Shown: positions 1,214 to 55,600 of the stretch, one piece after another
Position numbering within the stretch: the stretch's first letter is position 1
Layout of the letters: each line of letters begins with the position of its first letter
From: Buxus sempervirens
Lineage: Eukaryota > Streptophyta > Magnoliopsida > Buxales > Buxaceae
Length of the DNA stretch: 64,000 nucleotides
Direction: 5' to 3'
NCBI GenBank assembly: GCA_947561395.2
Contig: OX387191.1
Span: 38,581,439-38,645,438 of the forward strand
Position numbers and translations under genes: made by a program
Notes under the pieces: model-generated
Databases searched by the model: none
What the model was told of the DNA's origin: nothing
What the model saw: only the letters and a program-made list of their open reading frames with translations

Positions 1214-1569
1214 AGGAAGAGAGAGGTGTCAGCACATTGTAAAAAGAAAAAAGCAAAAAAGCAAAAAAGAAAGCAAAAAAGCAAAAAGAAAGCAACAAAA
1301 AAAAAAGCAAAAATAAAAAAAATATATATATTTTTTACCTGCAGGTTATGGGCAACAATGGCACATACATCATTATTAAGAGAGCAAGAAGATGAAGAAG
1401 CAAAAGCAAGTTGCAGAATATTCAAGCACAGGTTTGGGCATCAAATGCACCCAGGTAAATCAAATAAGAAAATCAATCAGGAAAATTCAATAAAATATTT
1501 CCTTCCTTATTGTTGAAAAACATCAAAAGCAATTGAGTTTGCAGAGGTCAATTTTAAATCCACATTCTT

Positions 1570-2418: not shown

Positions 2419-2562
2419 GTATCCGGATACTCAATCCGGATACAAGTACTCTTTCTCGTATCCGGATACTCATACCGGATACGTGTGAGCCTTAGCGTAT
2501 CCGGTACCATGTACCGGATACCTTAAGGCCCTTTGTTATCCGGTCTGATGTACCGGATACCT
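2419..2562 (+). repeat. Palindrome array, word GTATCCGGATAC
   Basis: Four successive pairs of GTATCCG and CGGATAC-like words form imperfect inverted repeats of about 20-30 bp within 145 bp. They lie 90-230 bp from the LTR start and end about 150 bp upstream of the TATA box. The other A copies carry the same array with a slightly changed word (44570-44715 and 7268-7338). Confidence 0.8.
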
Positions 2563-2715
2563 TAAGTTTGCTCAAAATTAGGGTTTTCCGAGAGCTTTTC
2601 ACTTTTACCATCATGTCCCTCATTAAATGAGGGGAAATCGCGGAAATAACCTTAGGGTTTAGGTTGGAGTGGTTCTAGACATTAAGTTGTGTCTACCAAT
2701 GACCTTAGCCCTTGC

Positions 2716-2725
2716 CTATAAATAG
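2716..2725 (+). promoter_or_regulatory. TATA box of the family A LTR
   Basis: CTATAAATAG is followed by GAGCC and, about 100 bp on, by a CAG/GTAAGCC splice-donor-like site. The same box at the same place occurs on the minus strand in both other A copies (near 44400 and 7065), which supports a real LTR promoter. Confidence 0.65.
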
Positions 2726-4603
2726 GAGCCTCCTCCTTGAGCAAATGGCACACAACTCTTGTTTTGAATTCTCGCAAAGAAGAACTCCAAGAGAAGAAGA
2801 AAACCGCTGTGGAATCGCCTCCAGCACTCAGGTAAGCCTCAACTTTTCTTTTTATTTTCTGTCTTTACATTCCTAGATCTAGATCTCTTCTTCTACCTTT
2901 CTGTAGTGTAAAGCCTTGTTTGTATGTGTGGAAATCCTTCCCTGGCTCAAAGTATCTCAAGACTCCCCTAGCCGTAAAACGTGAAGGCGGATCTAGGAGA
3001 AACGAGACTGGGGATTGACCCTAGTGCTAGAACCTATGTAGCATAAGGCCTTTTTGATTGATTGTAAACCGTTCCATATTCAAAGTACCCTTGATTATCT
3101 TAAAGAGAACAGAGGGAAACGATAATGGAACGGAACCCTAGGCTATGCTAGAACCTATTTTATTGAATCTATATGCATGTGTATGGATCTTGCTAGGTTT
3201 TTTTCACTTTTGCACACATATCACTATTTTGGCGGGATAGGCTCATATTTGGGGTTTATTGCATTTATTGTGATAAATCTCAAATAAATGGCCTCAATCA
3301 ATTCTGGAATGCCTTTCGGATGATTTTGAAGTATTTGTGTTCATCTTACACGAATTTCATTTTTTGTCAATTTTCGGATTTGGTTTTTACTCAAAAATGG
3401 CTTAGCTTGACAGCACCTGTACCCTTACTTCAGACGTCCGTAACTTCATCATCCGGATGAATTTTGAGGCGATTCCAGAACCATGGGAAAGGTGAGGCTG
3501 TCTAGTTTATGTCCACCAAATTTCATGAATTTCTATCTAGCCGATTTTTGACACTTCTCTGCCGAAGTTAAGTGGACAGTTCAGGTCCAAGTACAGAACT
3601 TGTCACTTCGACGGACCGCCATGTGTTCGTTTTAAGTCCGATTCGAGTGGTTTTTATTTCTGAGTACTCCTTTTTGAGTCTATTTTCAAATCCAGTTGGT
3701 TTCATAATTTTTGAATTCCATTTGAATTGTTGGTAGCCGATTTACTCAGAACTGCTCATTTGCATTTTTCTGGGTAAATCTGTGATCTTCGGGGCCTGTT
3801 CGGGAGACCGCCCAAGGCACATCCGAAGGGATTTTTGTATGAGGCTAGTTTCTATGGAAAGATGGCCATACAAAATTCAATCACACCAAATTTCGTGGAC
3901 TTTGGTGTAGTGGATTTTTCTAGACAATTTTCCAAAGTTGCCCACTTACTACTTTTAAAAATCCCCAACAGCAACTTCAAAGGAGCATAACTCCTAGATT
4001 TTTCATCGGAATGAAGTGAAATTTTGCATGAGACTCTTATTTACCCTAATCTTTCAAATGGATTTGGTTTGGTTCAACTCAGAATTGGATTTGAATGATT
4101 TCAAGGCAAATGGCATACTTTTTACCGAATTTTCCGGATTTGATTTAACTTGGTTTTATGCAACCTCTACTTGGATTTCCATCTTTTGAGATATTCCAGA
4201 AATGATATTGACATGAGAGAGGATCTAGAATCCATTTGGATCCTCATGTGAAAATATCATACATTGTTCCTTTTTCAAGGCTTTTTCATGATTTTTAGCA
4301 AGCTTCTTATTTTCTTTTTAGCATGAACATACACTTGGCAACCACTTCGTGTGGATGAATGGGGGTGCCTAACACCTTCCCCCGTTCATAATCTAATCCC
4401 CTTACCCATCTCTGGATTTGATTTTCAAGTAGGATTATTTTTATCCTAGAATGTTTCTTTTGGCTATTTTTGTCTACTTTTGAACTCTTTGGTGTCCATT
4501 CTCACCCCAAAATCATGAATGGTGGCGACTCTCCCGTTTTTGCGTTGAGCCCGTGTGTTGACGGAGGGACGATCACTCCGGTGATTTTTTCCCATGTCTC
4601 ACA

Positions 4604-4982
4604 GTCTCTAAGATTGATTATTACAAGGAATTATAGTAGGGATCTCATTACATTCTTGGGTTCATCACATTGTAGTGGTTTGGGTGATATTATTGTTATT
4701 CTTAAGAAGTTGATATTGTTGATTTCCCAATTTGTTCAGAACTCAGGTTTTGGACAAGAACTTGGGTACATTGTAATCTCTATTTTATTATAGTGGATTT
4801 ATCAGATTTATCCCGTGGTTTTTTTCCCTCTACACCGGAGGGTTTTTTCACATAAATTTGGTGTGTTCTCTCTTGTTCTTTCGGTGTTTGATATATTGCC
4901 TGTGTATTTGGATTATCTACTGTTTCACTTGTATCTATTTATTTTGGTTAAGTCAATTCCACAGATTATTTGGGGCCCAACA
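4604..4982 (+). mobile_element. Copia LTR fragment (Tork-like)
   Basis: It contains CCCGTGGTTTTT, then a CGGAGGGTTTTTTCACATAAA stretch, and ends CCCAACA. The same blocks in the same order occur in the Copia LTR at 62677-62817. Its left part is cut by the family A element. No primer binding site follows the end. It is an old fossil. Confidence 0.6.
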
Positions 4983-5090
4983 TCGAGCACACTGCCTTCA
5001 CAAGAAATGAACAAAATAGTCGAAGCGCTAGGTGGGTCTAGAATTTATTTAACGGAGGCCTATCCTGTTAAAAATATGTGAATCCCACTC
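4983..5090. other. Short unassigned spacer
   Basis: About 108 bp lie between the Copia LTR end and the hAT terminal region. I recognise nothing in it. Confidence 0.5.
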
Positions 5091-5587
5091 TAGGCATGGG
5101 AATCGGGCTAGCCCGGGCACAGCTTAGCCATGCCAGCTGGGTAGGGCCCGGTATGGCCTGTCTGGAAGTTGGGTCATGCCATGTCATGCCTAGCCTGTGG
5201 CACAACTAACCCTGGCCATGTCATGCTGGGCAAGGTCATTTCGTAGGCCAATTAATATTAAAAAAAGGAAAAATAATACAAAAAAATCTGAAAAAATATA
5301 CTCATTATTCATAAAAAAAAAATTTGCACATTTGGGATACAATTTTCTCCAAAAAAAATTTAAAAAAAGAAATTCTATTACAAAAAATGCTTACTTTGTA
5401 TTTCTACAAGTACAACTTTTCAAATGCAACAATATTTATAAAATTTTATTACATCACTATAGTATGAGCACATCCCAATTAGGTTGGCACCCACTCATCT
5501 ATTTGTCATTTGTAGTTTTTTTAAAGAAAATGAAAGTTTCTAAACTTAAACTCTACATTGATTACAAAAAATAAAATAAACGTTGAA

Positions 5588-6021
5588 CTAATCATCAAGA
5601 TTAAGTTCATCAAAGTCTCCAGCAAGTTGATCATCAATAAACTCTTGATCTCTCAGTTCCGCCCCTAGCCAATCCGTCAGGCACATGCTTCCACCATCTC
5701 TGGCATTAATCTGCTCCTATACTCGTCCACCGTTCGTCTACTTGCACTAAAAGATAATTCCGATGCAATTGTGAACACCAGAACCGTTAGTAGATCTCTT
5801 GCTATGGTGGAAAGCACAAGAAAATGACTTTGTTCTTACTTCCACCATGCCAAGACATTAAAAGAATCCATATCTTCTTTAGTTGATAGTTGTATCCAGG
5901 GGCCTTCTAAATATATCCTTAATTTAGATGATCCACTACCAGATGCTACTTGTTTCCCAATTTTTTTTTTTAAACTTATGACATTCCAGGCAAAAGATTC
6001 TGGTATTGATGTTTGTGCCTA
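5588..6021 (-). pseudogene. hAT transposase, C-terminal dimerisation region
   Basis: Read leftward, the code gives YLEGPWIQLSTKEDMDSFNVLAWWK, then ARDLLTVLVFTIASE, then EYRSRLMPEMVEA, DWLGAELRDQEF and a DDQLAGDFDELN tail ending in a TAG at 5588. The order matches the hATC dimerisation domain, where the family pattern is W-W-K, then A-R-D-L-L, then a F-S motif, then the EYRSSL.P..V block. A 1-2 base insertion just after EMVEA shifts the frame. The run of T at about 5960 may be another damage point. It joins the middle part across the solo LTR at 6022-7486. Function is lost. Confidence 0.8.
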
Positions 6022-7486
6022 TGTGAGACATGGAAAATCACTTACGTGACTTCCTAATCATCACATGGGATTGAAAAAAATAAGGAGTCGTCACCATTCA
6101 ATTTTAGGTGCGAATGGACACCAAAATGATCTTAAAAGTAAAAATAGAATCAAAAGTAACTCTACTTCAAGGTTAAATCCAAAGATGGGTAAGGAGATTA
6201 GGTTATGAATAGGGGAAGGTGTTAGGCACCTCTATTCATCCATACAAGGTGGTTGCCAAATACTGCTCATGCTTAAAAAAAGGCTTGCATGTAAAACTCA
6301 ATCAAAAGTATAAAAAAAGAACAAAAAGGATGTATGGTTATTTCATATGAATGGCCCAATTAATTCTGGACCCTCCATATGAATACACGATTTCTAGGGT
6401 TTCATGATTGAATAAAAAAATCAAAATAAACTCAAAGAAAGTAAACCTAAAGCTAAACCTGAAAAACCAACCTTAGGTTAAATCATTGAAGTCTTGAAAA
6501 TCCACATGATACAAGTTGAAATCACTCAAAAATACATTGAAGAATAAACTTAAAACCATTTAGGGTACAGATCTGGCTTAGATCTCTCATTGATTGGGAA
6601 AAGAAGCCAAATCTACCCATGTTGATAAAAAACATCAAAACAAGAGAGTTTAGACCATATGATCATCTCTCAAAAATTGAAGCTATTTTGAAAACATTTC
6701 ATGAAACCCTAGAGATTATTATAAGCCTTTTGATTTCAGATCTATCATATTGATCATGGTAGATCCAAAATCTTAGCCTATAATGACGAAAAGAAAGAGA
6801 TTAGTGAAGTGGATGTAGCTATATGATAAATCAAAATTTTAGGAGGAAACTAGGAGATCTAATGCTATGAACAACATAGATCTACATGAATCCTCTAAAT
6901 TTGAAAGAAGATCATAAAAATACACTCACACCCAGAATATCAAAAGGCATATAAAAGATCATCATACCTTGGTTGCTTGAGAGAGTAGAGAGGCAGGGGT
7001 TCCCTTCTTCTCCAGGAGCTCTTCTAGTTTCAATTTCCAGCCATTTGCTTTAAGAGAGGCCCTCTATTTATAGGCAAGAACAAGGGCAATAAAGTCCCAA
7101 GGGTAGACACAAAAGTGTATCTAGAACCTTCCAACTCAAACCTAAGGCATGGATTGGAGGAATTTGGCCGATTTCGAAGGCTAATTAGGGGAATTCCCAC
7201 CTCTTAGATAGAGCTATAGAGGTAAATTAATGAAAACTCTCGGGGGTTTCCCATTTGAAACAAAACATTAGTATCCGAGAACTCAGGTCGGATACAAACA
7301 ACAATCTTTGTATCCGAAACAATATTTTGGATACAGAGAAAAATATTTGTATTTTAAATCTATTTTCAGCTGCAAAAAGAAAAGCTTTTATCCAAATTTA
7401 AATTTCGGCTACAAGAGAAATAAATATTTTGTATAATTTCGGCCAATTATTCATCATTTCACACAATGTAATTTGGGTTCTCTACA
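6022..7486 (-). mobile_element. Family A solo LTR inside the hAT
   Basis: Left border TGTGAGACATGG and right border TCTCTACA are the inverted family A termini. The flanks GCCTA (6017-6021) and GCCTG (7487-7491) fit a 5-bp target duplication with one change. hAT code resumes on both sides, so it is a simple insertion reduced to one LTR. It keeps a TATA box (CTATTTATAG complement near 7065) and a reduced palindrome array (7268-7338). It is 1465 bp long, shorter than the other A LTRs, so it has internal losses. Confidence 0.8.
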
Positions 7487-8365
7487 GCCTGGTTACTTTT
7501 TCTATATCTTGACATTTTAGTATCATATTCATTAAAAAGTGTTTGTAAGAGATAGTTTATTCTACTAATATCTATTTCACGGGAAGAGTTCTTTTTCCAT
7601 TTATTCCTTCTATTAAACATTCTATTCCTACTAGTTTAGTCCTAGGGTCCGTTACACTAGCTAAGCAATATAAATGGGGCATTTCTTCCCAATATTTTAA
7701 AATTTTAGCTTCCATTGCTAGGCAAATATTACTAGCAACAGGTTTATCCATATTTCGTTCAAAACAACAAGATATTTTGCATAATATATTTAAAATATTT
7801 GGGGATGTTGGGCAATAAACTCTGAATAAAAATTTTGTTGTATCATAAAAAAACTTTTAAAAAATCTCTTAAAATTTTAGTTTATTATCAAGTCAAGATC
7901 TTCAAGTTGGCGATCTGGCATTTTGTATTTATAAAAAAAGTATAAGTACTTCTCTAAATTCTATTACATTCTAACATTAAAAATGTAGAATTCCATCTAT
8001 GTTCAACATCTAGGGGAATTTTTTAATGTGTTAGTCCAAAACTTTTACAAAAAAGCTTTAAATTCTTTGAGTTGTTCTAGAAAGTCTTAAAAATCTTACT
8101 GCTTCTCTAATATTATGTATATTATGGTTTACAATTTTTAATCTATCTTGTACAATTAAATTTAGGATGTGACGAGCACATCGAAAATGAAATAAATATC
8201 CATCTAGACTTAAATGTAATTGGGATTTTAATATGTCAACGGCAACGTTATTAGCACTTGCATTATCAAGTGCTAATGATGTTATTTTTTTTTCTAATTT
8301 ATATTCTCTAATATAATTTCCTATAGAATTTGCTATAGTTGCTCCAGAATGTCAACAATCTATTG
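7487..8365 (-). pseudogene. hAT transposase, central (catalytic-core) region
   Basis: Read leftward from 8365: HSGATIANSIGNYIREY, then ALDNASANNVAV, then DGYLFHFRCARHILNLIVQD, then IREAVRFLR; further left KISCCFERNMDKPV, then EAKILKYWEEMPHLYCLASV and DPRTKLVGIE. These are the conserved hAT core blocks in family order, including the L-D-N-A-S-A-N motif that holds a catalytic Asp and the H-I-L-N-L block. Stops and frame changes occur, for example between about 8040 and 8110 and near 7860. It continues to the right, beyond the LINE, at 18577. Confidence 0.8.
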
Positions 8366-8369
8366 CCAT

Positions 8370-9544
8370 AATTTATATTCTGCTGTATTCCAGATTCCTT
8401 GTGACAGTGCACCAGGTCTAGATGGCTTTTCTGCCTGCTTTTTTCTATCATGTTGGGAATAGTTAAGGAGGATTTCCTGGAAGCTGTTATTGATTTGTTC
8501 TCCGAGGGTTTAATTCCCCGTTCTGTTTCATCCTCCTTCATTGTCATGATTCCAAAGGTGGACAATCCCATTGAGTTTTCTCACTTTCGTCCAATTAGTC
8601 ATTGCAATGTGATTCACAAAGTGTTATCCAAGATTTTGGTGAATCGGATTTCTCCCTTTATGCCTCTTCTTATATCTTAAAGAGCAAAGAGCTTTTGTAA
8701 AAGGTCAGTTTATTAGTGATAACATTGCACTAGCTCAAGAGCTCATCAAGGACTTAGACAGGAAAATTCGAGGTTCTAATCTCGTTATTAAACTTGATAT
8801 GTTCAAAGCCTTTTATAGGCTCGAATGGGTTTTCTTGGAACAGGTGCTTCTCAAGTTCGGTTTCTCACCTTCTTTTGTGAAGCTTATCTCTAACGGTATT
8901 TTTGTTGTTGGTTTTCTATTCTTCTTAATGGCATATATGGTGGTTATTTTAAATCTACTCGCTGTTTGCGACAAGGAGATCCGTTGTCTCCTTTTAATTC
9001 ATTCTATCAAAAGAGGCTCTAAATCGTGGACTTCCTCGAATACGTTCTTTGGGAATGGTCAAACAGTTCTCAAGCCCTCGTAATTGCCATCCATTCTCCT
9101 TCTCATCTTTTGTTTGTAGATGACTGCTTGCTATTCACTAATGGTTCTCGTTCCTTGCTTCTAGCTCTTATGAATTTCTTATACTCTTATGAGGAGAGTT
9201 CTGGCCAAGTAATTAATCTTTCCAAGAGCCGTTTCTTTGTTGGTTCTAAGGTTTCTCTATCTTGTACATCCATTATCTCTCACATTAGTGGAATCTCTCA
9301 AGGTTCTCTTCCTTCTAAGTATCTTGGAGTGCCTTTGTTTAAAGGCCATGCTCGGGTTTCTTATTTTGATGATATGGTTCAGAAGATCAAGAATAAAATT
9401 GATACATGGATGTGCAAATTTCTCTCTCAGGCTGGGCACCTCATTTTATTTAAGAATGTTCTCAGCTGAGTGCCTATTCACCTTTTATCTGTGGCTTTGA
9501 TTTCCAAGACTATTATTGCTCATATTGAAAGACTCTTTGTTAGT
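8370..9544 (+). pseudogene. L1-like LINE ORF2, reverse transcriptase part (segment 1 of 3)
   Basis: The code runs SAVFQIPCDSAPGLDGF, then SSSFIVMIPKVDNP, FRPISHCNVIHKVLSK, ILVNRI, then NLVIKLDMFKAF, a decayed GDPLSP block, then LLFVDDCLLFTNG, GQVINLSKSRFFVG and PSKYLGVPLFKGHARV. These are the ordered RT blocks of plant L1-type LINEs. The usual FADD is FVDD here. There are several stops and frameshifts (for example near 8680, 8940-9030 and 9468). The 5' half (ORF1, endonuclease) is absent: the fragment begins within RT against hAT sequence, so it is 5'-truncated, as is common for LINEs. A solo LTR at 9545 interrupts it, and it continues at 14921. Confidence 0.85.
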
Positions 9545-11141
9545 TGTCAGCACCCCATTTTTGCACCTCTCAGAAAAGCTAGAAAGTGAAACCCTAAAAG
9601 ATAGGTCTGAACCCTAAGAAGAAAAGTGATTTTCTGTCCAAGCTCTAATTCATGGTCATACCCTATTTCATTGGAGGGAATGCCGATACGGTTCCAATGC
9701 AACTGAGTTTGCACAAATCAGAGTCTGTACGGAGAAGATATGGTCAAAATACTTCGAAGGGTAAAATGGTAATTACATGCAGAAAACGGGCCGCGTGGCA
9801 AGTGTGTGAGTCACATTTGCCAAGTGGTAAAATAAGGCATAAAAGACAAATAGGGAAAAAGACAAGGCAAAATAAAATGTTTGGAGGGTAAAATAATAAT
9901 TTAAAGTAAAGTCAACACGAGTTAAGGGTTCGTTTGGCACAAGTGCCAAGGCAAAACAACTTGCCAGGAGAGAGAAAACATGGAAATTTGAAAAGACCAG
10001 GACTTGGCCGATCTTAAAATTCGGTTATAAATGAAATCAATATGACCAAAATGTTATGTCGGTCATAGAAATGTATTATCGGTTCATTTTGACTTTGGTC
10101 AACCCAAGACCACCGGCCCATTCAATTCTTCTTGGAAATGAGTGAAAGTCATTGGATAATTTTCTGTGCACAATTAACACGTGATCAACCGAATTTCGAA
10201 TTTGGTCATAAAAGAACAGTGAATGACCGAAATTTTATTTCGGTCACAAGTGAAATTGTGTGTAACCGAACTGAACACACCTCACTGTTTTCAGCATGAT
10301 CATGATCTCTCATTTCGCTCATTTTTACTTGTTTGGATATGTTGATTGGGTATGGGCATGAGTGTGGCCGAATGGAATAAGACGCATGCCTTTCGGACTA
10401 CCTTTTTCTTTTCCCCCTGGGAGAGAAAGGACTGTCAAAACACCAGAACAGAGGTGGCTAAGCCTCTGTTCCAGCACATGAGTCCATCTTATGGATGAGA
10501 GAGCAAGGCCCCTACCCATGCTCTCCATTTGCTTGGCTAAAGAATCACTTTAGATGCATGAATTAGGCTTAACCATCAACAAATAAACCATTGCGGGCCC
10601 ACCAGATGGCCCATAGAAAACCTAGATAGCCCAAGGGATCAAAATTCCTAAACCTCAACCCAAAATCCCATTTTTTGGTATTTCTGTACTTAACTGAAAT
10701 CTCAGTTTAGTTAAACTGTAAAATGTCAATGACCGAAATTTAATTTCAATCATTTATAAAAATCCGGTTGACCAACCTATGTGTTCGGTTCAACCCCAAA
10801 AAAATCAAAAACAGTGTTTCTGGTTCAAGATGGCTTTAAAAGTAATTCGAATAACATAGCTAGAATCCAGAAGAATTTGTGGGCCTTTCTCAAACTCAAA
10901 TTGGACCATGGGCTTTCGTAAGCCCAAATATGATTCTAGCGGACCTTCCAACATGGTTCCCTTATCCAACTCATCTCATTTGATATAATTAAGCAAGAAT
11001 TAATCAAGTTAAGGATTAAACCTTCTGAGGTCCATTAAAAGCCCAAAATAAAGCATGCTTATATTAGATGGTTTGGCCGCATCCCAAGGTAAGGGCCTAT
11101 CGGGCCCTTACATCTTCCTCTTTCTTAAAAGAGAGGATTAC

Positions 11142-16207: not shown

Positions 16208-16429
16208 ACTCGATCAAACATAACATAGAATTTATTCACAACAACAACCAAAAAAAAAACATGGAAGTGCACTCGATCAAACATAACATTCGATCAAACA
16301 TAACATAGAATTTATTCACAACAACAACCAAAAAAAAAACATGGAAGTCAACTCGATCAAACATAACATTCGATCAAACATAACATAGAATTTATTCACA
16401 ACAACAACAAAAAAAAAACATGGAAGTGC
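16208..16429 (+). repeat. Three tandem copies of an about 80-bp unit
   Basis: Units at 16208-16270, 16271-16350 and 16351-16429 share ACTCGATCAAACATAACAT, then AGAATTTATTCACAAC, an A-run and CATGGAAGT. The first copy lacks one internal CGATCAAACATAACAT block. The second and third differ by only a few bases, so the last duplication is recent compared with the element around it. Confidence 0.85.
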
Positions 16430-17175: not shown

Positions 17176-17207
17176 CGCCGACGCTAATTCTTTGCAGTTT
17201 TGTAGTG

Positions 17208-19266: not shown

Positions 19267-19962
19267 TGTAAGCGCCTCATTTTTTTCACCCCTCGGAAAG
19301 CTAGAAATGAAAACCCTAACAGATAGGTCAAACCCTAGGGAGCCAAAATTGAATTTTTAATCAAGCTTGAATTAACTGCCATACCCTATCCCCATCGATA
19401 GGAAATCCCAACACGGTTCCAACGCAACTAAGTTTGCCAGAATCAGAGTCCAGATAAAGAAATTATAAGCAGAACAACCATAAGGGTAAAACTGTAAATA
19501 AATGCATAAATTCAGTCCACGTGGCAAGTGTGCTTGCATAGTTGTCAAATGGCAAATTAAAGGGCTAAAGGACAAAATAGAGAAAGGACAAGACACAAAA
19601 GCAAAATATCTCGATTAAAATAGTATTATTTCCTAAAAATATCTTAATTATATAATATTAAAATCTTAATGATTCTCGATTTGATGGGAGGTCACCTCAC
19701 ATGAAATCTCATTTATGGGGGGTCACCTTGCATCAAATCGGCCAGAGAGAAAAGAAAAGTTCACAACCGTATACCTTGTACGGACACATTAAATTCACTA
19801 ATGATGAGAGATCTATTGGAAAATCATATCCAAAATCCAGAATCAAATAAACTATATTTGGCATACGGACGGAGCAAAATTGAGCTGAAAATGCCCTGTC
19901 CGCACTTCCCATACGGTTTTAGAAGATTTTATGGAAATCTTATCCATTGCACAAATCTACCA
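19267..19962 (+). mobile_element. Family B LTR, 5' portion only
   Basis: It starts TGTAAGCGCCTC and aligns by eye with the first 500-700 bp of the other B LTRs (CTAGAAATGAAAACCCTA, then GGTTCCAACGCAACTAAGTTTG). Its palindromes use a different word (CCGTATACCTTGTACGG near 19768 and CATACGG words to 19915). It is cut at 19963 by a family E LTR. The remainder of this LTR is not seen beyond E. Confidence 0.65.
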
Positions 19963-22723: not shown

Positions 22724-24449
22724 TGTAAGTACCTTATTTTTGCACCCCTCAAAAAAGCTTAAATGAAAACCCTGAAAGATAGATCAAACCCTAAGAAGCA
22801 TAAATTGACTTTCTGATCAAGCTTGAAATGACTACCGTACCCTATCCCAATGGATAGGAAATCCCGATATGATTCCAACGCAATTGAGTTTGTCAGAATC
22901 AGAGTTCAAATGAAGAAGATATATGAGCAAAACAACCCTAAGGGCAAAACTGTAAATAAATGCAAAATCCTGTCCATGTAGCAAATGTGTCAAGTGGCAA
23001 ATTAAAGGACAAAAGGGCAAAATAAGAATAAGACAAAACACAAAAGCAAAATATCTCAATTAAAATAATATTATTTCATAAAATATCTCATTTTAAATAA
23101 TTAATAAATGAAAAAAATAAAAAGGAAGGATTCTCTCATTTATGAGAGAAATCCCACACATTGCAGCCAAATAGGAGAGAAAAAGTAAGAATCCAGAAAG
23201 ATTTGAAAATAATTGAAATTAAATTTCAGCTATACATGAAAACATGTATAACCGAAATATAATTTCGGTTCTCAGATTTTTTTCCTAGATTTTTGTGTCA
23301 ATATTCTCTGTGTGAATCTCTAACACAAATCATACTGATTTGATGTTAATATGACTGAAATTATATTTTGGTCAGAAGTAATTTTATATATAGCCGAAAT
23401 ATAATTTCGGCTATAAATAAAAAATAGCATAACCGAACTAAGTTTTTGGTTATGCTATTTTTGTCTATAAAAGCCAAAATTCAGCTCATTTACAGGGGTT
23501 CTAACTTTTTTGCCTTCTCTCACCTCTCTCCCACGTACACCCTTCTCTCCTACCCCTCTCCCTCACTCTCTAAGCCCTCCAACCCTAACTAAACAACTTC
23601 AAATCCCTTCCCTTCCTTACTCAAACCAAGAAGGAAGCCAAGAGCCCGAAGTTGAAGCTGAAGGAGAGTGATCTTGCTGCTGTTCCAACTCCAAGGAGCA
23701 TCCACACACCCCCAAGGAGGTTCTTATAACCAAGGTGAGCCTCCTCTATACTTTTCATGTAACATATGTTGGGATTATAGTGATATGAGCATGCTTTTAG
23801 AAGTTTATGCCATGAGGCTAATGCATCTTTTAATGTGTCCCTCTTATTCTTCTCTTTATTGTAAAACCCTAGATTTTTCTAAAATAAATAAATGAATAAA
23901 TAATTAGGAAATAAATTATTGAGAAAATATTAAGAACAGTAATAGTTGAAGAATTGGGAAGAAATTTAAAGGTTAAGATAGGAAATCAAAGAGAAGGGTA
24001 ATTTGGTCAATTCCAATTAGTTAAATTCATGTAAGGAGTAAGATAATTAATTATTAAGTTAACAAATTTAACTAGACCAAATTTTAGCTTAGTTCGATGT
24101 AAAATAATGAATTTAAGGTTTAAGTGAGGGATTAAGGACCTAATGGTCATTATATTATTTAGGGACCTTAATCTTGGCAATATGGATGGATAATAAGTGA
24201 CTAATTAGAATTAAAAATTTAGGATAAGAATAAGCATGAAAATTTATTAGGAAATTCTTTAAAAGAGAGTTTAAGGGAGATAAATTAAGAAGAAGGGTAA
24301 AAGAGAGATAATCTTAGAGTTTAAAGAAAGGTTAACCTAATTAGGATTTGCTCATTAGTGGGCCTATAAAAGAGAAGTTTTAAGAAGAGTTTAGGGTTTT
24401 GAAATAAGCTCAAAAGAGAGGGAAATTCATGCATAAGATCTGGAGAAAA

Positions 24450-27152: not shown

Positions 27153-29660
27153 AAAAAATAGAAAGAAAAGAGAGAAAAGAAAGGAGAGTTTACGAAGAAA
27201 GAGGAGTTGTAGAGATGGCTGACTAGCCCTGTTTGAGTGGAGCTCTAGAGAGATCCCACCGTTGGTTTGGCCGGAAATTTTGAGGTTTTGATCTACACGT
27301 GGGGAACTTTAATCTGAATGGTAGAGATTTGATTTGGAGAAGTCTAAGGGGGTGCAAGAAGATAAGGATTTCGGCAGATCTAGGTTCACACATAAGGCAA
27401 GTACCAAAACCTTTTAAACTGGAGGAACTGCATTACTTTCGTATGTTTTGGATGCTTAAACATGGTTTATCTTGATTCAAGTTTTGTCTTGAAAAGTTGA
27501 GAGATTTATAGGTTGATTTTTGTTTTCTTCTTCTTTAAAGAATTTGGAAAAGTGTTGATTATAAGAGATTAAATTTAGAAGGAAAGACTTAGATAAACTT
27601 TTATTTATTGAGATTAGGTTAGGATTGTCTTAGAAGTAATTTAGAATGAAAATAAGTAGATTTGAAACAATCTTAAACCATGGAATTATTGAATAGTTCG
27701 GAAAATTTAAGAAAAACCTAGAAACAGTGTATTTGGCCGAGCGCTCGAACCGCCGCTCAAGCGTAGATGCAGGCGCCCCGCCTGTGTTTTATTTTTCCAG
27801 AAAACCTGAAAGTGATCAAAACCCAGAAGGCGAACGCCCGAAGGACCGCTCGAGCGTCATTACGAGCGGCCTGAGAAGAAACTGACCATTATAGAACACC
27901 CAATACACCGCTCAAGCGCCCTTTCGAGCGGCCTCTGTCAGAATTTCCAGATTTTGGGATTCGAGCCCAGATCTAATTTTTAATGATTTTTATTGGAATT
28001 TTAAAGTTGTAACACCTGTAATTAGGTTAATTTGAGATGTAGGAAGTGGTGGAATTAAATTTGGATTAAAGGATAGTAATTTGGGACGATGATTGTAAAA
28101 ATGAAATTTTTGGAGATGTTCTAAGTAGAATGAGGTCACAACCTATTTAGATCTGATTTTGGGCAACTTACCCTATCCTTAAACTTCAATACAAACCTAA
28201 GTTACCTCCTAGATGTAATAATTAACAAAGTTAATAAATTTTGACACCTTGGGTTCTTAAAAGGAGAATTTTGTGTAATCTTTAATGAACATCTAGAATA
28301 ACAACCAACTAGGGGATGACTCTTGGTAAATAATAAAATACTGATTCGGCCAATAACCTAACACCTTCACACGAGTAAGTTAGGAGAGTTCACACTAATA
28401 ATTTACGGTTTAAGCAATTAATTAAGGAATTGTGCATGCCTTCATACCTATCTTGTTTTAAGGACCTAGAAATCTGTTTAAGACCTGATTTTGGTTATTG
28501 TAAATATCTGTTGGTTTTGCCACCAAAATTTTGATGATGATTGTAGACACATTATTGCCATGTTATGTCCTCATATGAGGTTTTGTTATTGATTTATACA
28601 TTACAAAGTTAATACATGTTTTGATTGAGAATTGTGTCTAGCGGGTGGTGCTTAGTATGGATCCATAGCTTAGCTAGGAAGTGGAATGAAATTGTCTGAT
28701 AAGTTATTTCCTGTTCGGTACTTCCCAGTATGCATTCCATCATAGATGTGACGAGGGCAGCAATCTAGACCGCCGTGTTATCTCGGCCTGGTCTTAGCCA
28801 AATTTGTTGTTCGGCAACCGTTTATTGGATTATTGGTTATTTGGGTTACCACCGCGTGCTTCAATGAGACATCACTCACACGAGTTTTATATTGGTCATG
28901 TTTTAAGTTACTTGTGACTCGCACCTTTGAGCTATATTTTGGCTGTGCTTGAAGTTCACTTGTGACTTGCACATGCATTGGTATTAGCCGTGTTGTCGAT
29001 GATCCATTTATCTTTGATCAGATTGGTATTTCCCTGGCATGTTTATTCCGCAGTTGTGGGTTTGTTGTTTTTGACTTCGATTGTACGCACCAGCCCATCC
29101 GTGTTTTGTCAAGGGTGATCCACATTGATGGTTGATGGAGGAAATAGAAGTGATTGCATTTGCGGGCTCCATTTATCATGTAAGTCGTGAGGTGGTGACA
29201 ATGGGGGCAGGAATATCTTATTAAGTGGTTTCAATTCATGAGTCCTGTCATGTCACACATGTTTGGTTTGTTAATTGCTTTATATATGTTAGTATCGTGG
29301 TTTTGTTTTATTGTTTCACTTCATGACTATATTTTGTAAAAATTATGGACTGTTTTACTTCATGCACATTGCTACTTGTTGAGATTTATTCTCACTCCAA
29401 TTTTCCCCATTTTTCAGGTATTCTTGGAGAGGTCGATAAGCTTGGGATATTTGTAAAGGGTAGTCTGTAGATGTGAACTGGTCTTGAATAAAAAAAATTA
29501 CTTGTAACTCTTGAGTTTATTATAACTGAATTGGTTTCCGCATAATAACTCTGATAATAAAAGAAAGAAAAAGTTTTAAATTATTCGGGTTTTAGATGCT
29601 TTTGCATTCATTCACTAACACCTTGGGTTTGGGATATTTATCCAGATCCGGGGCGTTACA

Positions 29661-30910
29661 TTTATAGTATTTTTTGTTCTCTTTATCAAGAGGAAACTTC
29701 CATGGTAAGGGGAGGTGGTTGATCCAAAAGGGAAAGGAGAAGAGACCATGATAGTTCAACTTAAAGTCTCATCTATATGTCCCTTTTCCATGTTCTTTCC
29801 TTATTTGATATAGGGGGAGTATGTTCTCCCTCCCCTCAAGTCCAATGTACCCTTAAATCCCCCATCACCTTTCTCTTTAGTTGATGTGCTTTTCTTTTCT
29901 ATTTGAGTTAGATAGATCCATCTTGTTATAATTCTTAAGAAGGAGCAAATACTTGACCTTTTCTCCCTCTTTTCTGTTATATGTATATCATAATAGGAAA
30001 GGCATGAGTTCCCTTGTTTGAGCATGATTTATCCCTTCATATATGTCCTAACACCATATTTCATGATTTAGTGTAAGTGATCATGTGCTTATCTCTCATT
30101 TTGATCACTTCCACACAACTCTTAGGGGTATTAAGTAGGATGCATTCACTAATGTTAAGTATTAAAATGGGCATGTCCCAACTTCTCTTTTTTGGAAGCA
30201 TGTGTTTTTGCTTCTTGTTTCCCATGCCATATCAAGCACACAAGTATCACTGGTTAAGTAGGTTTATATTACCTTGTATTATCTTGTATATATTCTTCCT
30301 TGCTTGCCTTGTGTGGGTATGCTTCATGGTGTGCCCGTGTAGACCGTGATTTAGGCCTATCGGGCCACTCTCCCTTTCTTCTCCCATGAAGAAAGAGAGG
30401 ATATTGCATACACAGCAAGTGGGACACCTAAGGTCCCATTTAATGGCTGGGATTCCATCCCTAAGTGGAGGAGAAGGCCCCAAACCTCACCTCCCCACTT
30501 CCTTGGATTGGAATTAACAAAGTTGCCTTAATAGGTCATAAACCCCAACTTTACACCACTGTAGGCCTACAGTGGGGCCCACACAATCTCTGATCATCCC
30601 CAGAAATAGAGAGCCCATTACCTTGTTAAAAATTTCATTTTTGGAGTTTTTTCTTCTTGACCAAAAACTCAATTCAATCAAGCATATATCTGTTCGTAGC
30701 TGAAATTAAATTTCAGCTATGCTCTTTTTTAGTATGACCAAAATTTGATTTCGATCATGAACAGATAAGGATTTGACCGATCTGTCCTTTCGGTCAAACC
30801 CTAAAAATGCTCTTTTTTTTTATCTTTTATTGTTTTAACCCATTTTAAATTATAAACTATTAAAACCAATAAGGTTTTGGGCTCTCCCTTAACCCAACTT
30901 GGGCCTTAGG
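29661..30910 (+). mobile_element. Middle part of the 22.6-kb family B LTR
   Basis: It starts with the second TTTAT duplication copy. CATGGTAAGGGGAGG and CAAGTCCAATGTACCC match 53867-54050 in the undisturbed B LTR. Palindromic ATTAAATTTCAGC and GACCAAAATTTGATTTCGATC words lie at 30690-30800. There are no genes. Confidence 0.8.
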
Positions 30911-42158: not shown

Positions 42159-45100
42159 TGTGAGACATGGGAAAAATCACCAGGATGATTTCCCCTCCGT
42201 CAGCACACGGGCTCAACATAAAATGGGAGAGTCGCCACCATTCAGATTTTTGGGGTGTGAATGGACACCAAAAGATTCGAAAATAAGCAAAAAGAGCTAA
42301 AAGGCAAATTCTAGAGTAAAAATAACCCTACTTGAAAATCAAATCCAGAGATGGGTAAGGGGATTAGATTATGAATAGGGGAAGGTGTTAGGCACCCCCC
42401 ATTCACCCACACAAGGTGGTTGCCAAGTATTGTTCATGCTAAAAAAATAAGAAAGCTTGCTAAAAATCATTAAAAACATTGGAAAAGAATTAAACCAATG
42501 TGTGATATCTTCACATGAGAAATCCAAATGGATTCCAGATCCTCTTTTATGTCAATATCACTTCTGGAATATCAACAATAAATGGAAATCAAAGCAAAGA
42601 TTGCACAAAGCCAAGTTGAGTGAAATCCGGAAAATTCAGTAAAAGATAATGCCATTTGTCTTGAAATCATTCAAATCCAATTTTAAATTGAATCAAACCA
42701 AATCCATTTGAAAGATTATGGTAAATAAGAAACTCATGCAAAATTTCAAGTAAATCCGGTTGAAATCCTAGGAGTTATGCCTCCTTTAAAATTGCTGCTG
42801 GAGATAGTTAAAAGTGGCAAGTAGGCAAGTTTGGACAATCACCTAGAAAAATCGGCTCCATATAAATTCATGAAATTTGGTGTGATTGAATTCTGTATGG
42901 CCATCGTTCGAATGAAACTAGCCTCATACAAAAATTCATTCGGATGTGCCGTGTGTGATCTCCCGAACAGGCCCCGAAGATCACAGATTTACCCAGAAAA
43001 GTGCTGTTGAATAGCTCTGAGTAAATCTATTGCTCACGACACAAATGGAGTCAAACAATTATGAAACCAACTGGATTTAAAACTAGACTTCCATAGGAAA
43101 ACTCAGAAACAAGAATCACTCGAATCGGACTTAAAACGAACACATGGCACTCAGTCGAAGTGACAAGTTCTGTATTCAGATCAGAACTGACCTATCAACT
43201 TCGACAGAGAGGTGTCAAAAATCCGCTTGATAGAAATTAATAAAATTTGGTAGGCATAAACTAGACAGCCTCACCTTTCCCATGGCTCTAGAATCACTCC
43301 AAAATTCATCCGGACGATGAAGTTATGAGTGTCCGAAGTTGGGATACAGTTGCTGTCAAGTTAAACCATTTTTGGGTAAAAATAACTCAAAACAGTGACA
43401 AGAGGTGTGTGATCCGTGCAAGATAGATCAAAATCACTTGAAAATTATTTAAAGACATTCCAGAATTACTTTCGGCTATTTATTTCAGATTTATCACAAT
43501 AAATGCAATAAATCCAAAATATGAGCCTATCCCGACAAAATCACGTGCCATGTATGTGTAATTGTAAAAATCATTCCAACAACATAGCAAAGATAGCATG
43601 CATTCATATCAATCACAATAGGGTTCTAAAACAACCTAGGGTTCCATTCCATTATCGTTTCCCTTAGTTCTCTCTCCCCGTTAAACACAGTTCTTCAAGA
43701 TAATCTTGGGGTACTTTGAATATGGAACGGTTTTCATAAAATCACAAGGCTCATAGCATGCATTTAGATCAATAAAAAAAGAGGGTTCTAGAACAACCTA
43801 GGGTTCCGTTCCATTATCGTTTCCCTTAGTTCTCTCTCCCCGTTAAACACGGTTCTTCAAGATAATCTTGGGGTACTTTGAATATGGAACGGTTTTCATA
43901 GAATCACAAGGCTCATAGCATGCATTTAGATCAATAAAAAAAGAGGGTTCTAGAACAACCTAGGGTTCCGTTCCATTATCGTTTCCCTTAGTTCTCTCTC
44001 CCCGTTAAACACGGTTCTTCAAGATAATCTTGGGGTACTTTGAATATGGAACGGTTTACGTAGATTCAAAAGGCTTATTCAAATGAAGGTTCTAGCACTA
44101 GGATCAATCCCCAGTCTCGTTTCTCCTAGATCCCGCCTTCACGTTTTATGGCTAGGGGGAGTCTTGAGATACTTTGAGCCGGGGAAGGGTTTTCATACAC
44201 ACATCAAGGCCTTATTCTACAGAAAGGTAGAAGAAGAGATCTAGATCTAGAATGTAAAAACATAAAATTAAAGATAGGTTTGAGGCTTACCTGGGTTCTG
44301 GAAGCAGTTTCGCAGCGGTTTCCCTCTTCACTCGGAGCTCTTCTTGGTAAAAGTTCTTGACAAGAATTGTTGGCCATTTGCTTAAGGAGGAGCCTCCTAT
44401 TTATAGGCAAAGGCTAGGGTTAGGGTTGGTGAGATGGTAGACACAAAATAATGTCTAGAGCCCACCAACCTTAACCCTAAGGCTATTTCCGAGATTTCCA
44501 TTCCTTTAATGAAGGATATGATGGTAAAAAGTGAAATCTCTCGGAAAACCCTAATTTTGAGCAAAAAGCTTGTATCCGACATGTTAGGTCGGATACAAGC
44601 AATTTTCTTTGTATCCGACATTATCTATCGGATACAAAGAAGATCCTTTGTATCCGACATTATTTGTCGGATACAATAAAGATGTTTTGTATCCGACATT
44701 ATCTGTTGAATACAAAAAAAAGAAGCTTTTATCCCAATTTTAACACAGGCAATACTTATTTACATGTAATATCGTTTAAGTAAATGTCCTCGTATTTTAA
44801 TCTCCATTTACTTAAGATATTACATGTAAATAAGCAAACACCCCCCCCCCTCCCCCATTTGAATCCATTAAAAATAGTTCCAGACCCAAATTCCAAGTGA
44901 ATAAAAAGTCAACTTTCCAGTTCTAGGCAAAATTCCGATTTTTCAGATCCGGTAAAAAGATTCAACATATTAAAACCAAGGTATTCGTCAAGATTTAAAA
45001 TCTCAAAAAATTCTTTTATGCAATAACATGGCTAAAAACCTGATTACCGGGAAAAATTATCTTGAAATCTGGCTTTAAAAAATATTTCATTCTCTGGGGT

Positions 45101-45291: not shown

Positions 45292-45361
45292 GGTATGCAC
45301 TCACATGCACCTCCCAAGATTCATGAAATTAGACTGTGGCCCACGGATCGACGCGTGCACA

Positions 45362-48300: not shown

Positions 48301-48366
48301 ATCATTTCTCAGATTTAAAACAAAGCCGATGTTTCATCCTAATTTCAAGACCTCCCTAATCTATGG
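45362..48366 (+). mobile_element. Tat/Ogre-type internal region with broken gag
   Basis: It follows a family B LTR end directly. A P/Q-rich stretch comes first (about 45540-45710). Then from about 45830 to 47040 come gag-like blocks: KFRCPNFKKFD, RTWPDLAHLFTEQFRFY, ELMRMSKKAGEAVRDYTRRW, VERGIKAG, and a C-terminal AYHMVAPGHATNQCWALYHAIQDLID block typical of Tat/Ogre gag. It is a fossil with several breaks. 47041-48366 has no recognisable protease, RT or integrase, so pol is missing. It ends at the next B LTR. Confidence 0.75.
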
Positions 48367-51300: not shown

Positions 51301-51510
51301 CAACCGACGGGGCGGACCGGGGTGTTTTCGGACTTCCCCAGACCGTAACCGAGACCTTAGCCAGAATCTCTAAAAACCGTAGACCATCCCAGTAGACCTG
51401 TATAGGCACCTAGGTGTCTGCTTGCACCCCATCAGGCAATGGCGACTCCGATACCCCATTTTTAGTGTGGCGCCTTGCAGGACATGCACACATATGGGAC
51501 ATGATGCGCA
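48367..51510 (+). mobile_element. Family B LTR (B4), with its right end unclear
   Basis: It starts TGTCAGCACCTTATTTTTGC. It has a fivefold tandem segment (48490-49170), a CT-rich leader (49500-49800), a donor ACACAAG/GTGAGC near 49950 and GCACCCCATCAGGCAATGGCGACTCC at 51426-51450. The usual GTGCACA end is not clear, so the right border is approximate. It differs from its neighbour B5 at many sites and lacks the CCGAAAT palindromes, so it is a different subfamily. Confidence 0.65.
48490..49170 (+). repeat. Fivefold tandem segment of about 150 bp in B4
   Basis: A unit with GATAGAGGATTCCGATACG, then AAGTTTGCYNNAATCGGAGTCC and AAGTTATGAGC recurs near 48496, 48650, 48788, 48941 and 49080. The copies differ strongly from each other. 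All other B LTRs have a single copy of this segment (for example 19400-19470 and 22850-22930). Confidence 0.8.
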
Positions 51511-52684
51511 AAAGTCGCCCAAAAAAGGGGAAAACCCTCAAATGCAAAATCCTGAAGCCACCCTAAACCAGATCAAAGTAAAAAAAGAAAATCAAAACTG
51601 GGGAACAGAGAACAATCTTTGAGACATCCCGCATCTCTTAAGCCTTTGAAAAACCTATGAGAGTCAATGATGGCACAAGTCAAGAATTTCATGGGAATGT
51701 GTGTCAAGCACACTGTCCCAAAACACTTCAAGCTAACAAGGCAATTCACCATGGTCATTGGTCTTGCCTTTTCTATTAAAGCACTTCCACAAAATTTTTT
51801 GAAAAGCTTTTTCATTTCAATCATGTGCACTCGCACACACAATAAAACCCAGTAAGCCAAAGTGCTTACATTTTTAATTTTAGATACCTCACCGTCTTGT
51901 GAGAAATTTTGCAGGCCCGTGCGAGGCAGAAAATTAGAGGATATCAAGTAGCACCTTGAAATTGGAGAATAGAAAAATGAGATTCCATGCAGTATCTCAA
52001 ACAAAAAGAAGAAAGAAGAAGTGGAGGAAAGCCATGCGGCAATACAAAGCACACAAAAAGGGAACTTGCAAAGAGCCCACTTATCCCTTGTGGATTCTTC
52101 CCCAAATAAAGAATCCATGCATCCCAGTGGAGCATTGTCCAGCGCAAAGCTTGAGCAAGCTCAAGAACAAGAAAGAAGGCGTGTTTTGAAGACACGAAGG
52201 GTAGAGAAGGCCCTAATGTAATTTTTTATTTCCTATTTTTGTAAATAGATTAGGCAAGGTGTGCGAGCTCCTAAGAAATTCCAAACAGCAGCAAGAGTGC
52301 CTCCTTCCAAAATCCAAAAACCTTCCAAAAATCCAAAATCCAAAATCCAAAATCTAAAAAAAAAAAAAAAATAGAACCTAAAAATTGCATCCTCACTGAA
52401 ATTTGAGAAGTTGAATCATCTAGAAAACTCAAAACTAGTGTACCAACATTAAAGCAATGCACGAGCACCACAAAACCTAAAAGATGTACAAAGCATCACT
52501 TCTTTCCAAAACCCAGAAAAAGTGCAAAGCATCACATGAGAAAAGTACCACGTGCTAATGTGCTTTATCCCACAAACCCGAAATCAACTCCAAAGCTTTC
52601 TCAGACAAATGTGAGGAATGCAAAATTTGGGCTTCTTTCTACATTTATCATTTGTCAGCAAGCGACTTCGACAAATGGGGCAGC
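51511..52684 (+). mobile_element. Non-coding family B internal remnant
   Basis: It lies between two B LTRs in the same orientation and ends in a polypurine tract (52673-52684) abutting the next LTR. Only 1.2 kb long, it shows no gag or pol. Its last 430 bp match 22256-22723. Either it is a deleted element or a non-autonomous (LARD-like) form. The open frames in it have no recognisable protein character. Confidence 0.6.
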
Positions 52685-55600
52685 TATAAGCACCCAAAGT
52701 TTGATCAAACCAAAATGTACTAAAATTAACAGAACCTTGAAACAAGTCTGAACCCTAAAGAGTAAGAAATGTCTTTTTTGTCTGAGCTTAAATTGATCAC
52801 CATACCCTATGCCAATGGGTAGAAAATCCCAATACAGTTTCAATGCAACTGAGTTTGCGTGAATCAAAATCCGGATAAAGAAGTTACGGTCAAAACACTC
52901 TCAAGGGCAAAACTGTAATTAAATGCAGAAAATTGGCCACATGGCAAATGTGCAAGCCACGCTTGCCAAGTGGCAAATTAAAGTGCTAAAAGACAAAATA
53001 GGGAAAGGACAAACACAAAAGAAAATATCTTGGATTAAAATAATAATATTTCTTAAAATATCTTTATTTAATTAATTAATTAAATAGTAAAATCAAAATT
53101 CAGATTTCTCTCATTAATGAGAAATCATGAGAGAAACAAGCATCATTTCACCTAAATATGAGAGAGAAAATTCGGATTTTTAAAGATTTGGTTTGAACCG
53201 AAATTAAATTTTGGTTATGAACTATTTTATGTATGACCAAAATTTAATTTCGATTCATAGATTTGTTTTCCCAGATTCTTGTATCAGACTGTTCATTGCA
53301 AATCGTTGACAAAAATCATGTTGATTTGATGTTACGCTGACCGAAATTATATTTCGGTCACGAGCAATTTTATGTATAGCCGAAATTTATACATAAAAAA
53401 TAGTGTGATCGAACTGAGTTTTCGGTCACACTATTTTTGGGTATAAAAGCGTAACTCAGCTCATTTCATGGGGTTAAACCAATCTTGCTCTCTCTAACCT
53501 CTCTCTCACATACGTCCCTCTCTCATAACCTCTCTCTACCCTCGCTAAGGCCCCTAGCCCCTTCCAAACCCCTCCAAAATCGCCACCCATACCCTTCTTC
53601 TTCCACTTTAACAAAGAAAGAGGTTGAGAAAACACTGGGGAGCAAAAAACAGGTGCTCCAACTGCTGTCCTCACTCCAAGGAACCTCCATACACCCCCAA
53701 GAAGGTTTTCATACTCAAGGTGAGCTTCCTCTCCCATTTTTACATCATATATATGAAATCCATGCAAGAATGAGTATGTTTTGAGTTGAAAGTCCATTGT
53801 TGGTGTGTGTTATTCTCTTTCTCCTCCCTCCATGTTTAGCTTCCTTTCCTCCACCAAGAGATCTCCCATGGTAAGGGGAGAATGTTAGGCTAAAAGGGAG
53901 GTGATGAGAGGCCACTTAGTGGCAAAACCAAACAAAAGTCCCATTTTAATGTCTTTCCATGCATCCTTTTTATTATTATTCAAGGAAGAGCATGTTCTTT
54001 ATTATTATTCAAGGAAGAGCATGTTCTTCCTCTTCTCATGTCCAATGTACCCTTATAAGTCCCCCACTACCTTTTCTTTACAAGCTTTATTATTTAGTTC
54101 TTATTAGCACCCTTTATCTTCATTGTTTTGCTTTACATGATTGATTGAATGACCTTTTTTTTTAATTCCCAATTTGCGCACAAAAAAGGAATCATGGCAC
54201 ATAAATCACCTTATCTAATTGTAAGCATGCCTAGTTTCCATCTCATTGGTCATGTTTCATACTTCCATGAGCACCAAGCATGATCCACCTTGCACTTTAT
54301 CAATTAAAGCATGCTTGTTTCCTTCCTCTTATTCTAGGTAGGTTTCATTCCCTTGCATGCACACTCCATGCCAATGTCCACCCACCACCAATGCTTTAAA
54401 TATGTTTTAAAATTATTTTATGTGCCCCCCAGCATGCCTCTTTTATGTGTATTATTTGGGTGTGTTTCTTGGTTTGGCCTCATGAGACTTGGGGAAAGAG
54501 GACCTTTCGGGTCCCTCACCTACCTTCTCTCATTAAGAAGGTGAGTGATCCCTATGAACAATGAAGAGATGCCTGTTATCTCTTTAAAACACATGGATTT
54601 CCCTCCATGAGTGGAGGAGCAAGGCCCCAAGCTTTGCTCCCTACTTTTTGGCCTAAAATCCATCAAAGTAGCTTAATTAGGTCATAAACCGTATTCTCAG
54701 ACCATTGTGGGCCCGCCTAGGGGCCCACTGTAAGCCTGATCATCCCAAGAAGTCAGAGAGCCCAACACTTTGCTAAAAATTGCATTTTTGATATTTTTCA
54801 TGCTTGACCGAAATCTCAGTTCGGTCAAGCAGGGTTTTGTTAATAGCCGAAATAATATTTCGGCTATAAATAGAATTTAGGTTGACCAAAATTTCAGTTC
54901 GGTCAACCTAGAAAAATTGCAGAAATGTGACTTTTACTTCTTTATTTATTTTTTAATCCTTTTTAATTAAATCAAATAATTCCAGCAAGGTTTTGGGTTC
55001 CCCCTTAACCCAAAATAGGCCTTGAGCCTTTGTGGGCCCACACTTGATTCTAGTGGGCCTTCCAACGGGGCCCACCCATTCCCACTCATTCCATTTTGGA
55101 TTAATTAAGCAAGAATCTACCTAAATAAAGGGTCGCACCTCAAGGGGCCTGAATAAAGTCCAATTTGAATCATACTTAGTTAGGCTAAGATGGTTTGGCC
55201 GTGACTATTGGTGAAGGCCTATTGGGCCATACCCTTTCCTTTCTTAAAGGGGAAGCGGTTCACCAAATCAAACCAAGGTTAGGGAACCTCACCCGCTACC
55301 TCAAAAGTCTTAAGCTTTCAAACCTAAGCCTAAGGAGATGGCCCCAGGCCAATCCCTAAACCCTTTTTTGCATCAAACTTAAATAAGATAAACAAATCAA
55401 AGGAAACGACTGTAAGGCCCACAAAGTAGCTATAGGCTCAATTAAGGAAATTAGAGCATATGGTTAAAATCATACCCTAAAACAAACCAACCTTAAACCA
55501 AAAAGGGTGCTACCCCATGTAGCAGCCCTAATTAGGATTTAGACCACCTCCTGGTCTAGCTTGACATCCTATGGGAATTCCAATGGTGCCCACACTCCAG

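Follow-up and report, generated by a model that had tools for sequence, protein, structure and literature searches.

Palindromic dyads with a constant CCG-N11-CGG core and changing words in retrotransposon long terminal repeats of Buxus sempervirens

Why would a retrotransposon keep the pairing of palindromes in its long terminal repeats (LTRs) while the words that pair are replaced? The question is raised by a stretch of 64,000 nucleotides of Buxus sempervirens (contig OX387191.1, positions 38581439-38645438; hereafter the window), which holds LTRs of two retrotransposon families, A and B, with arrays of inverted repeats (dyads). An initial annotation of the window described arrays of GTATCCG..CGGATAC pairs in family A, of CCGAAAT..ATTTCGG pairs in two clusters per B copy, and of a CCGTATAC word in one further B copy. 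It took the replacement of the word, with the dyads retained, as a sign of a dimeric binding site, of RNA hairpins or of a local inverted copying process. We find that most of these arrays stand out from shuffled sequence, that one 17-bp core underlies all the words, and that the outer arms change in pairs. Genome-wide counts cover one genome (676.5 Mb). Repeat searches scored the best 40 candidates (131 for an antisense open reading frame, or ORF, described below), and copy numbers are lower bounds.

The RNA fold of each array was compared with 200 dinucleotide shuffles. In seven of the ten folded arrays no shuffle was as good (z -8.0 to -13.3); in three, some shuffles were (z -1.8 to -2.4). 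The arrays and nearby promoter-like features are listed here, with folded intervals in brackets (U3 and U5, unique 3' and 5' parts of the LTR; register, distance in bp from dyad to dyad):

2419-2562, plus strand: A1 U3 array, four dyads with cores at 2423, 2462, 2501 and 2540, register 39 (2405-2575, z -11.7)
2717-2725, plus strand: TATA-like TATAAATAG of the A1 LTR, about 155 bp beyond the A1 array
7268-7338, strand not assigned: A3 array, cores at 7275 and 7314, with an extra detector match at 7392 (7260-7345, z -8.5)
10189-10275, plus strand: U3-side cluster of an old B copy, a single good dyad at 10227, the others decayed (10180-10280, z -2.2, 5 of 200 shuffles as good)
10728-10790, plus strand: second cluster of the old B copy, decayed (10720-10800, z -2.4, 4 of 200 shuffles as good)
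19764-19925, plus strand: B-related LTR in which the word is CCGTA/TACGG, cores at 19767 and 19900, scant flanking symmetry, fold not significant (19750-19935, z -1.8, 11 of 200 shuffles as good)
23213-23449, plus strand: B U3 array, cores at 23252, 23394 and 23433 by the detector, and at 23213 and 23355 (decayed) by reading (23190-23470, z -9.5)
23466-23473, plus strand: TATAAAAG, 16 bp past the last core of this B U3 array
30690-30802, plus strand: B second (U5-side) cluster, core at 30777 by the detector (30685-30810, z -8.1)
44570-44719, minus strand: A2 U3 array, cores at 44576, 44615 and 44654 and a decayed fourth, register 39 (44560-44725, z -13.3)
53194-53441, plus strand: B U3 array, detector cores at 53198, 53341 and 53409; about 10 bases are deleted from the dyad at 53380 relative to most copies (53330-53445, z -8.0)
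53442-53449, plus strand: TATAAAAG, 16 bp past the last core of this B U3 array
54801-54910, plus strand: B second (U5-side) cluster, cores at 54808, 54847 and 54886, register 39 (54790-54920, z -10.0)

Taken alone, three arrays are unconvincing (fold z of only -1.8 to -2.4): the CCGTATAC copy at 19764 and, near 10 kb, the pair of clusters in the old B copy. The two main words are over-represented in the window: GTATCCG occurs 19 times against 1.6 expected and CCGAAAT 19 times against 7.0, and none of 100 shuffles reaches either count.

Beneath all the words lies a common geometry, a 17-bp core of the form CCG-N11-CGG. The initial annotation had neither this spacing nor the register, and it lacked the third family, C, and the pair of dyads beside an antisense gene, both described below. 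Exact CCG-N11-CGG occurs 20 times in the window, and no other spacing between 0 and 30 exceeds 8 occurrences; of these 20, the matches at 28770 and 51304 are outside the arrays and have little symmetry. A fixed dyad detector, allowing at most one mismatch in CCG/CGG and requiring at least 5 of 8 neighbouring pairs, was run over spacings 6-20 and found 23 dyads at N11 and 0-7 at each other spacing. Twenty-one of the 23 fall inside previously annotated intervals (one overhanging by a base), and those at 7392 and 10046 fall outside; the detector found no dyad in 19764-19925. Across the genome, N11 is found 163,369 times, against 43,280 for N10 and 40,613 for N12, a surplus of about 121,000 sites. 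Counts of the reversed pattern (126,325, 143,005 and 105,655) concern other triplets and depend on spacing, and N10 and N12 were taken as controls instead. The first 100 CCG-N11-CGG places of the genome, from one chromosome end, are mainly background; they have a weak pairing excess at inner positions 1 and 2 (p 0.0045 and 0.0115) and no clear excess at inner positions 3-5. Because the excess is confined to one spacing and lies above shuffles, chance inverted repeats can be ruled out.

The cores are also regularly placed. The commonest distance from dyad to dyad is 39 bp in A1, A2, A3, both B clusters and two other loci, L123 and L124, and it is 28 bp in family C, represented by these arrays:

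L122:735-860: family C array, CCGTA..TACGG, register 28
L122:1680-1910: family C array, same word and register, giving L122 two clusters, as in B
L003:1209-1310: family C array, same word and register

A first look gave 2627 family C candidates in the genome, 40 of which were scored, and 21 LTR copies carry the CCGTA..TACGG word in arrays. Although the copy at 19764 is unconvincing by itself, its word is real in family C. Core length is 17 in 57/62, 56/57 and 63/63 copies of the B dyads H3, H4 and H5, whereas the linkers are less constant (modal length in 50/62 and 36/57 copies). Recent simple tandem duplication was rejected as the sole account, since the register is common to B dyads with different linkers. 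The motif ACTCA(G/A) stands, on one strand or the other, at one place within the N11 of at least one dyad each in A1, A3, L123, L124, C (locus L121) and the antisense-side pair.

The first clusters had been placed just upstream of the TATA box. This is so in B, in which CGG and TATA are 16 bp apart in 47 of 64 copies and 15-28 bp apart in three (TATA not found in 14), and in C, in which the distance is 16 bp in 12 of 21 copies, 15 in six and 17 in one, hence 15-17 bp in 19 (TATA not found in two). It is not so in A1, where about 155 bp lie between the array end and TATAAATAG at 2717.

Around the constant core, the outer arms (5-10 bp per side) differ among families and between adjacent dyads of one B LTR, yet they stay complementary. 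For example, just before TATA the B copies have GTGACCG..CGGTCAC or ATAACCG..CGGTTAT, and C has GCCCG..CGGGC at a comparable place; L124, although a 71% match to the B U5 side, has TCCGACA..TGTCGGA-like dyads. Pairs 5-12 of B H5 carry four words among 29 perfectly paired of 61 copies, and pairs 0-7 of H4 three words among 25 of 57. In the B U5-side dyads, the perfect stems (6/25, 4/24 and 13/28) carry four, four and two words.

The initial annotation proposed a search for paired compensatory changes and named dyads no more frequent than in shuffled sequence, or arms drifting independently, as outcomes that would count against its claim. The arms do not drift independently. Trees were made from non-stem columns (64 U3 sequences with 104 columns; 28 U5-side sequences with 101 columns, the duplicate rows L005, L011, L013 and L025 having been removed from the U5 tree beforehand); they are small, and recombination among LTRs is likely. 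Both members of a pair changed on the same branch 44.7 times in U3 against 13.9 expected if independent (3.2-fold), and 28.8 times on the U5 side against 11.8 (2.4-fold). Together with the seven arrays that exceed their shuffles, these paired changes bear out the claim that words turn over while dyads are retained. Arm re-pairing (38 strict dyads from 12 copies, 5000 re-pairings) agrees. In the flanks at -4..-1, 108 of 152 positions are paired, against 65.7 after re-pairing across families (0/5000), 93.2 within A, B and C (p 0.0014) and 100.8 within the LTR copy (p 0.12). At -8..-5, 76 of 152 are paired, against 44.9 (0/5000), 59.2 (p 0.0006) and 62.1 (p 0.002), respectively. At the inner positions +1..+4 the count is 89 of 152, against 58.8 (0/5000), 80.8 (p 0.06) and 95.2 (p 0.98). 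The outer arms covary, and the inner bases track the family word.

The arrays evolve faster than their flanks, and the dyads persist regardless. A1 and L123 are 73.1% identical across the array and 98.0% over the following 200 bp; the corresponding values are 54.5% and 86.1% for A1 and A2, and 61.8% and 86.1% for A2 and L123. The L123 LTR, at 73% beside an adjoining 98%, could reflect fast turnover or an exchange of arrays. The A2 LTR region also contains a 162-bp unit in three tandem copies (43593-44075).

The element to which the A1 LTR belongs can be placed by its proteins. Immediately upstream of the window, an ORF (L120) has the domain order RVT_1, RT_RNaseH, RVT_3, Integrase_H2C2/rve. 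Two RNase H domains are reported to be unique to the Tat clade, the second being placed, in Ogre and Retand, between RNase H and integrase (PMC6317226). A1 has a second RNase H (aRH) in that position and is of the Ogre/Retand type of Ty3/gypsy; this placement by protein domains concerns A1 (L120). Next to the old B LTR (8643-9466) there are weak RVT_1 matches under the Pfam cut-off. The best 40 places for an A1 query are 98-100% identical and many are paired about 20 kb apart, which indicates that the A1 family was recently active. About 0.5 kb before the A1 3' LTR, at 1801-1846 on the minus strand, lies a second stretch similar to the polypurine tract and LTR start (TGTAGACACC-like).

An antisense gene adjoins the same LTR:

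332-1228, minus strand: antisense ORF of 299 amino acids, adjoining the A1 3' LTR, under purifying selection; a candidate partner of the dyads in only one of the readings below

The ORF is stop-free in 118 of 131 scored copies, a share biased upwards because these are the best-scoring ones. In a sample made up of the copy in the window and 15 stop-free ones hand-picked from the lower part of the scored list, its ratio of nonsynonymous to synonymous change (dN/dS) is 0.139, with 31/22/88 variable sites per codon position; the other frames of the same sample give 1.10 and 1.67 (antisense) and 0.91, 0.25 and 1.88 (sense). Judged by these substitutions, the ORF is under purifying selection. It has no known domain in Pfam, NCBIfam or PDB sequences and no homologue above chance elsewhere in the window or in loci L001-L144. 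A single-sequence model of the protein is poor (mean predicted local distance difference test score, pLDDT, 49) except for a long helix, residues 178-271.

A pair of dyads in register 39 (L001:2178-2233 and L004:748-803) stands upstream of the antisense ORF, at about 0.6 kb from the 3' LTR, and is followed by a GC-rich palindrome, GTCGCGCGCGAC. Forty genome places of the module were compared. At 13 of them a scored antisense ORF follows on the same strand, 3.1-5.2 kb downstream, and within 8 kb no place has such an ORF upstream or on the opposite strand; the remaining 27 have none of the 131 scored ORFs nearby. Both dyads are kept in 17 of 18 copies read. Nine of ten other hand-picked A1 3' LTRs have a scored antisense ORF 5.8-6.1 kb off, and one is without. 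In the window copy the ORF is 1.2 kb from the 3' LTR with no detector dyad between them, and this is probably a shortened copy.

We favour, with moderate confidence, the reading that the arrays are regulatory DNA of the promoter region in Tat-clade LTR retrotransposons and that the 17-bp core is the putative footprint of a dimeric DNA-binding protein. Among the three causes that the initial annotation put forward, a dimeric site is best supported, since a word-independent core and a fixed register span families with different words. If proteins lie side by side on the DNA, a constant core, a constant register and an almost constant distance to TATA are to be expected; RNA hairpins or copying do not require them. 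Each unit would be a two-fold symmetric core for one protein dimer, and the 39-bp register (28 in C) would set several dimers in a regular array 5' of TATA, directly before it in B and C and about 155 bp before it in A1. Further dimers might occupy the U5-side second clusters of B and C and, in A1-like elements, the dyad pair close to the 5' side of the antisense gene. The outer arms of one B LTR differ yet stay complementary, from which we infer selection on the dyad; they may be kept symmetric by such selection, by copying, or by both, possibly aided by hairpin-mediated template switching in reverse transcription. Binding of a protein, its dimeric state and control of transcription we infer from sequence. 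LBD/LOB proteins, considered as possible binders, gave no site spacing to compare. LBD/LOB dimers are reported to discriminate palindromic DNA (PMC10118128).

Several observations sit poorly with a dimeric site. A single protein leaves unexplained why adjacent B dyads have different, still-pairing outer words, and the inner bases have no pairing of their own within an LTR copy (re-pairing p 0.98, as above). B and C are similar between dyad and TATA, and the fixed distance may partly be inheritance. Tree controls with the partner slid along also exceed independence, by about 1.5-2.1-fold (U3 11.4-17.0 against 5.7-10.9 expected; U5 8.7-14.4 against 4.9-8.1), probably because of tree error and relatedness. 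TATAAG follows the antisense-side dyads in just 5 of 18 copies, the other 13 carrying TTACTTAA, and the dyad pair with TATA was not upheld as a general antisense promoter. We found no known factor with a CCG-N11-CGG site. Finally, G-T mismatches exceed A-C mismatches in B, 157 to 112.

The last point would suit dyads that act in the RNA of the element, in its stability, packaging or dimerisation or as a source of small RNA, with selection keeping the stems paired. Seven arrays have strong predicted folds, the outer arms covary, and palindrome-rich LTR regions of maize Sireviruses are reported to be small-RNA hotspots (PMC5311732, PMC10760457). We consider RNA hairpins unlikely, because ACTCA(G/A) is found in either orientation with respect to the promoters and G-T mismatches do not clearly outnumber A-C ones: the excess in B is mostly two subfamily-shared pairs (31 to 3; the rest 126 to 109, a split made post hoc), and in C it is absent (63 to 57). 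Nor do hairpins need the N11 spacing of CCG, a register of 39 or 28 bp, or a TATA 16 bp away. Copying without selection, in which arm is copied onto arm during reverse transcription or replication by hairpin-mediated template switching (quasi-palindrome correction), seems doubtful as the whole account but possible for the outer arms. Template switching can generate and keep hairpins (PMC8794818), multiple H5 stem pairs change jointly, and array turnover is far above that of the flanks (73.1% against 98.0% identity). The loops of the third U5-side dyad seem inverted between copies, by eye, at just 8 against 6 of 11 letters. The joint change of pairs also fits exchange between subfamilies or tree error, though, and copying predicts neither the fixed core nor the register nor the TATA distance. 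In addition, many copies retain the asymmetric loop and fixed imperfect pairs, such as G-T at H5 pair 7 in 12 of 64.

Inheritance could account for the tandem register, for the likeness of B and C between dyad and TATA, and for ACTCA(G/A) in the same place across several families, if one ancestral array had spread by duplication and transposition and its leftover symmetry had no present function. We find this very unlikely: paired changes exceed the slid controls, core length is constant where linkers vary, and dyads are retained in an array about 27% diverged beside a flank 2% diverged. It is also quite unlikely, though somewhat less so, that the dyads are cognate sites of the element's own antisense-encoded protein, which would regulate or de-silence the LTR and its own gene, the words changing by coevolution of protein and site. 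The low dN/dS, the low-confidence model helix, a possible dimeric coiled coil, and the dyad pair in 39-bp register upstream of the gene all point this way. If true, it would be a VANC-like system in a retrotransposon. VANDAL/VANC of Arabidopsis differs in that the element is a DNA transposon, the motifs are in one orientation and not dyads, and binding has been demonstrated (PMC5735166).

The closest published case we found is the repeated motif (RM) of Sireviruses, a Ty1/copia genus, to which the arrays here are similar in anatomy. RM consists of palindromic LTR boxes in many copies upstream of TATA (Bousios et al. 2010, PMC2829016), just as here palindromic boxes are grouped ahead of TATA within the LTR. 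As reported there, the RM word varies by element around a constant CGG/CCG signature, as here, and further boxes stand before an extra gene (env), as the dyad pair here stands by the antisense gene. The boxes were called Sirevirus-specific among the Ty1/copia elements compared. RM has the form CGG-N4..6-CCG (12 of 13 motifs, our own count on Table 3 of that paper) in place of CCG-N11-CGG, its host is Ty1/copia whereas A1 has the Tat domain order of Ty3/gypsy, and the parts of that paper drawn on here describe no compensatory change, whereas the arms here covary. Because superfamily and spacing differ, we do not regard the arrays as members of RM. Maize Sirevirus palindromes are described as hairpin-forming, sequence-variable and located in LTR regulatory regions (Bousios et al. 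2016, as cited in PMC5311732 and PMC10760457); their motif is CACCGGACNNNGTCCGGTG, with N5 between CGG and CCG, in a copia element. Retand with antisense TRP28 ORFs (PMC11963269) is a Tat-clade element with antisense ORFs between pol and the 3' LTR and tandem arrays near; the TRP28 domain PF04195 is not matched by the antisense ORF here, and the main text of that paper contains neither 'hairpin' nor 'inverted repeat'. Open-access full texts, a coverage that mostly leaves out subscription papers, gave no description of such dyads in Tat LTRs.

Palindromic CGG/CCG boxes before TATA had been described for one Ty1/copia genus, and giant Ty3/gypsy elements here follow the same logic with another spacing. 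This suggests that two superfamilies reached dyads of the same triplets, and it narrows the search for a host or element factor. The N11 spacing is a word-independent handle on the surplus sites of one genome, and it would allow single-base changes of the spacer to separate a binding site, an RNA hairpin and a copying process.

Elsewhere in the window, an Rfam scan gave no match at gathering score and no tRNA genes were found. An 80-bp unit is repeated in tandem at 16210-16429 (2.8 copies, 96% matches), an ORF with a zf-RVT domain (PF13966) lies at 56090-56653, and the window ends in a copia-type gag (63130-63999; PF14223, PF22936).

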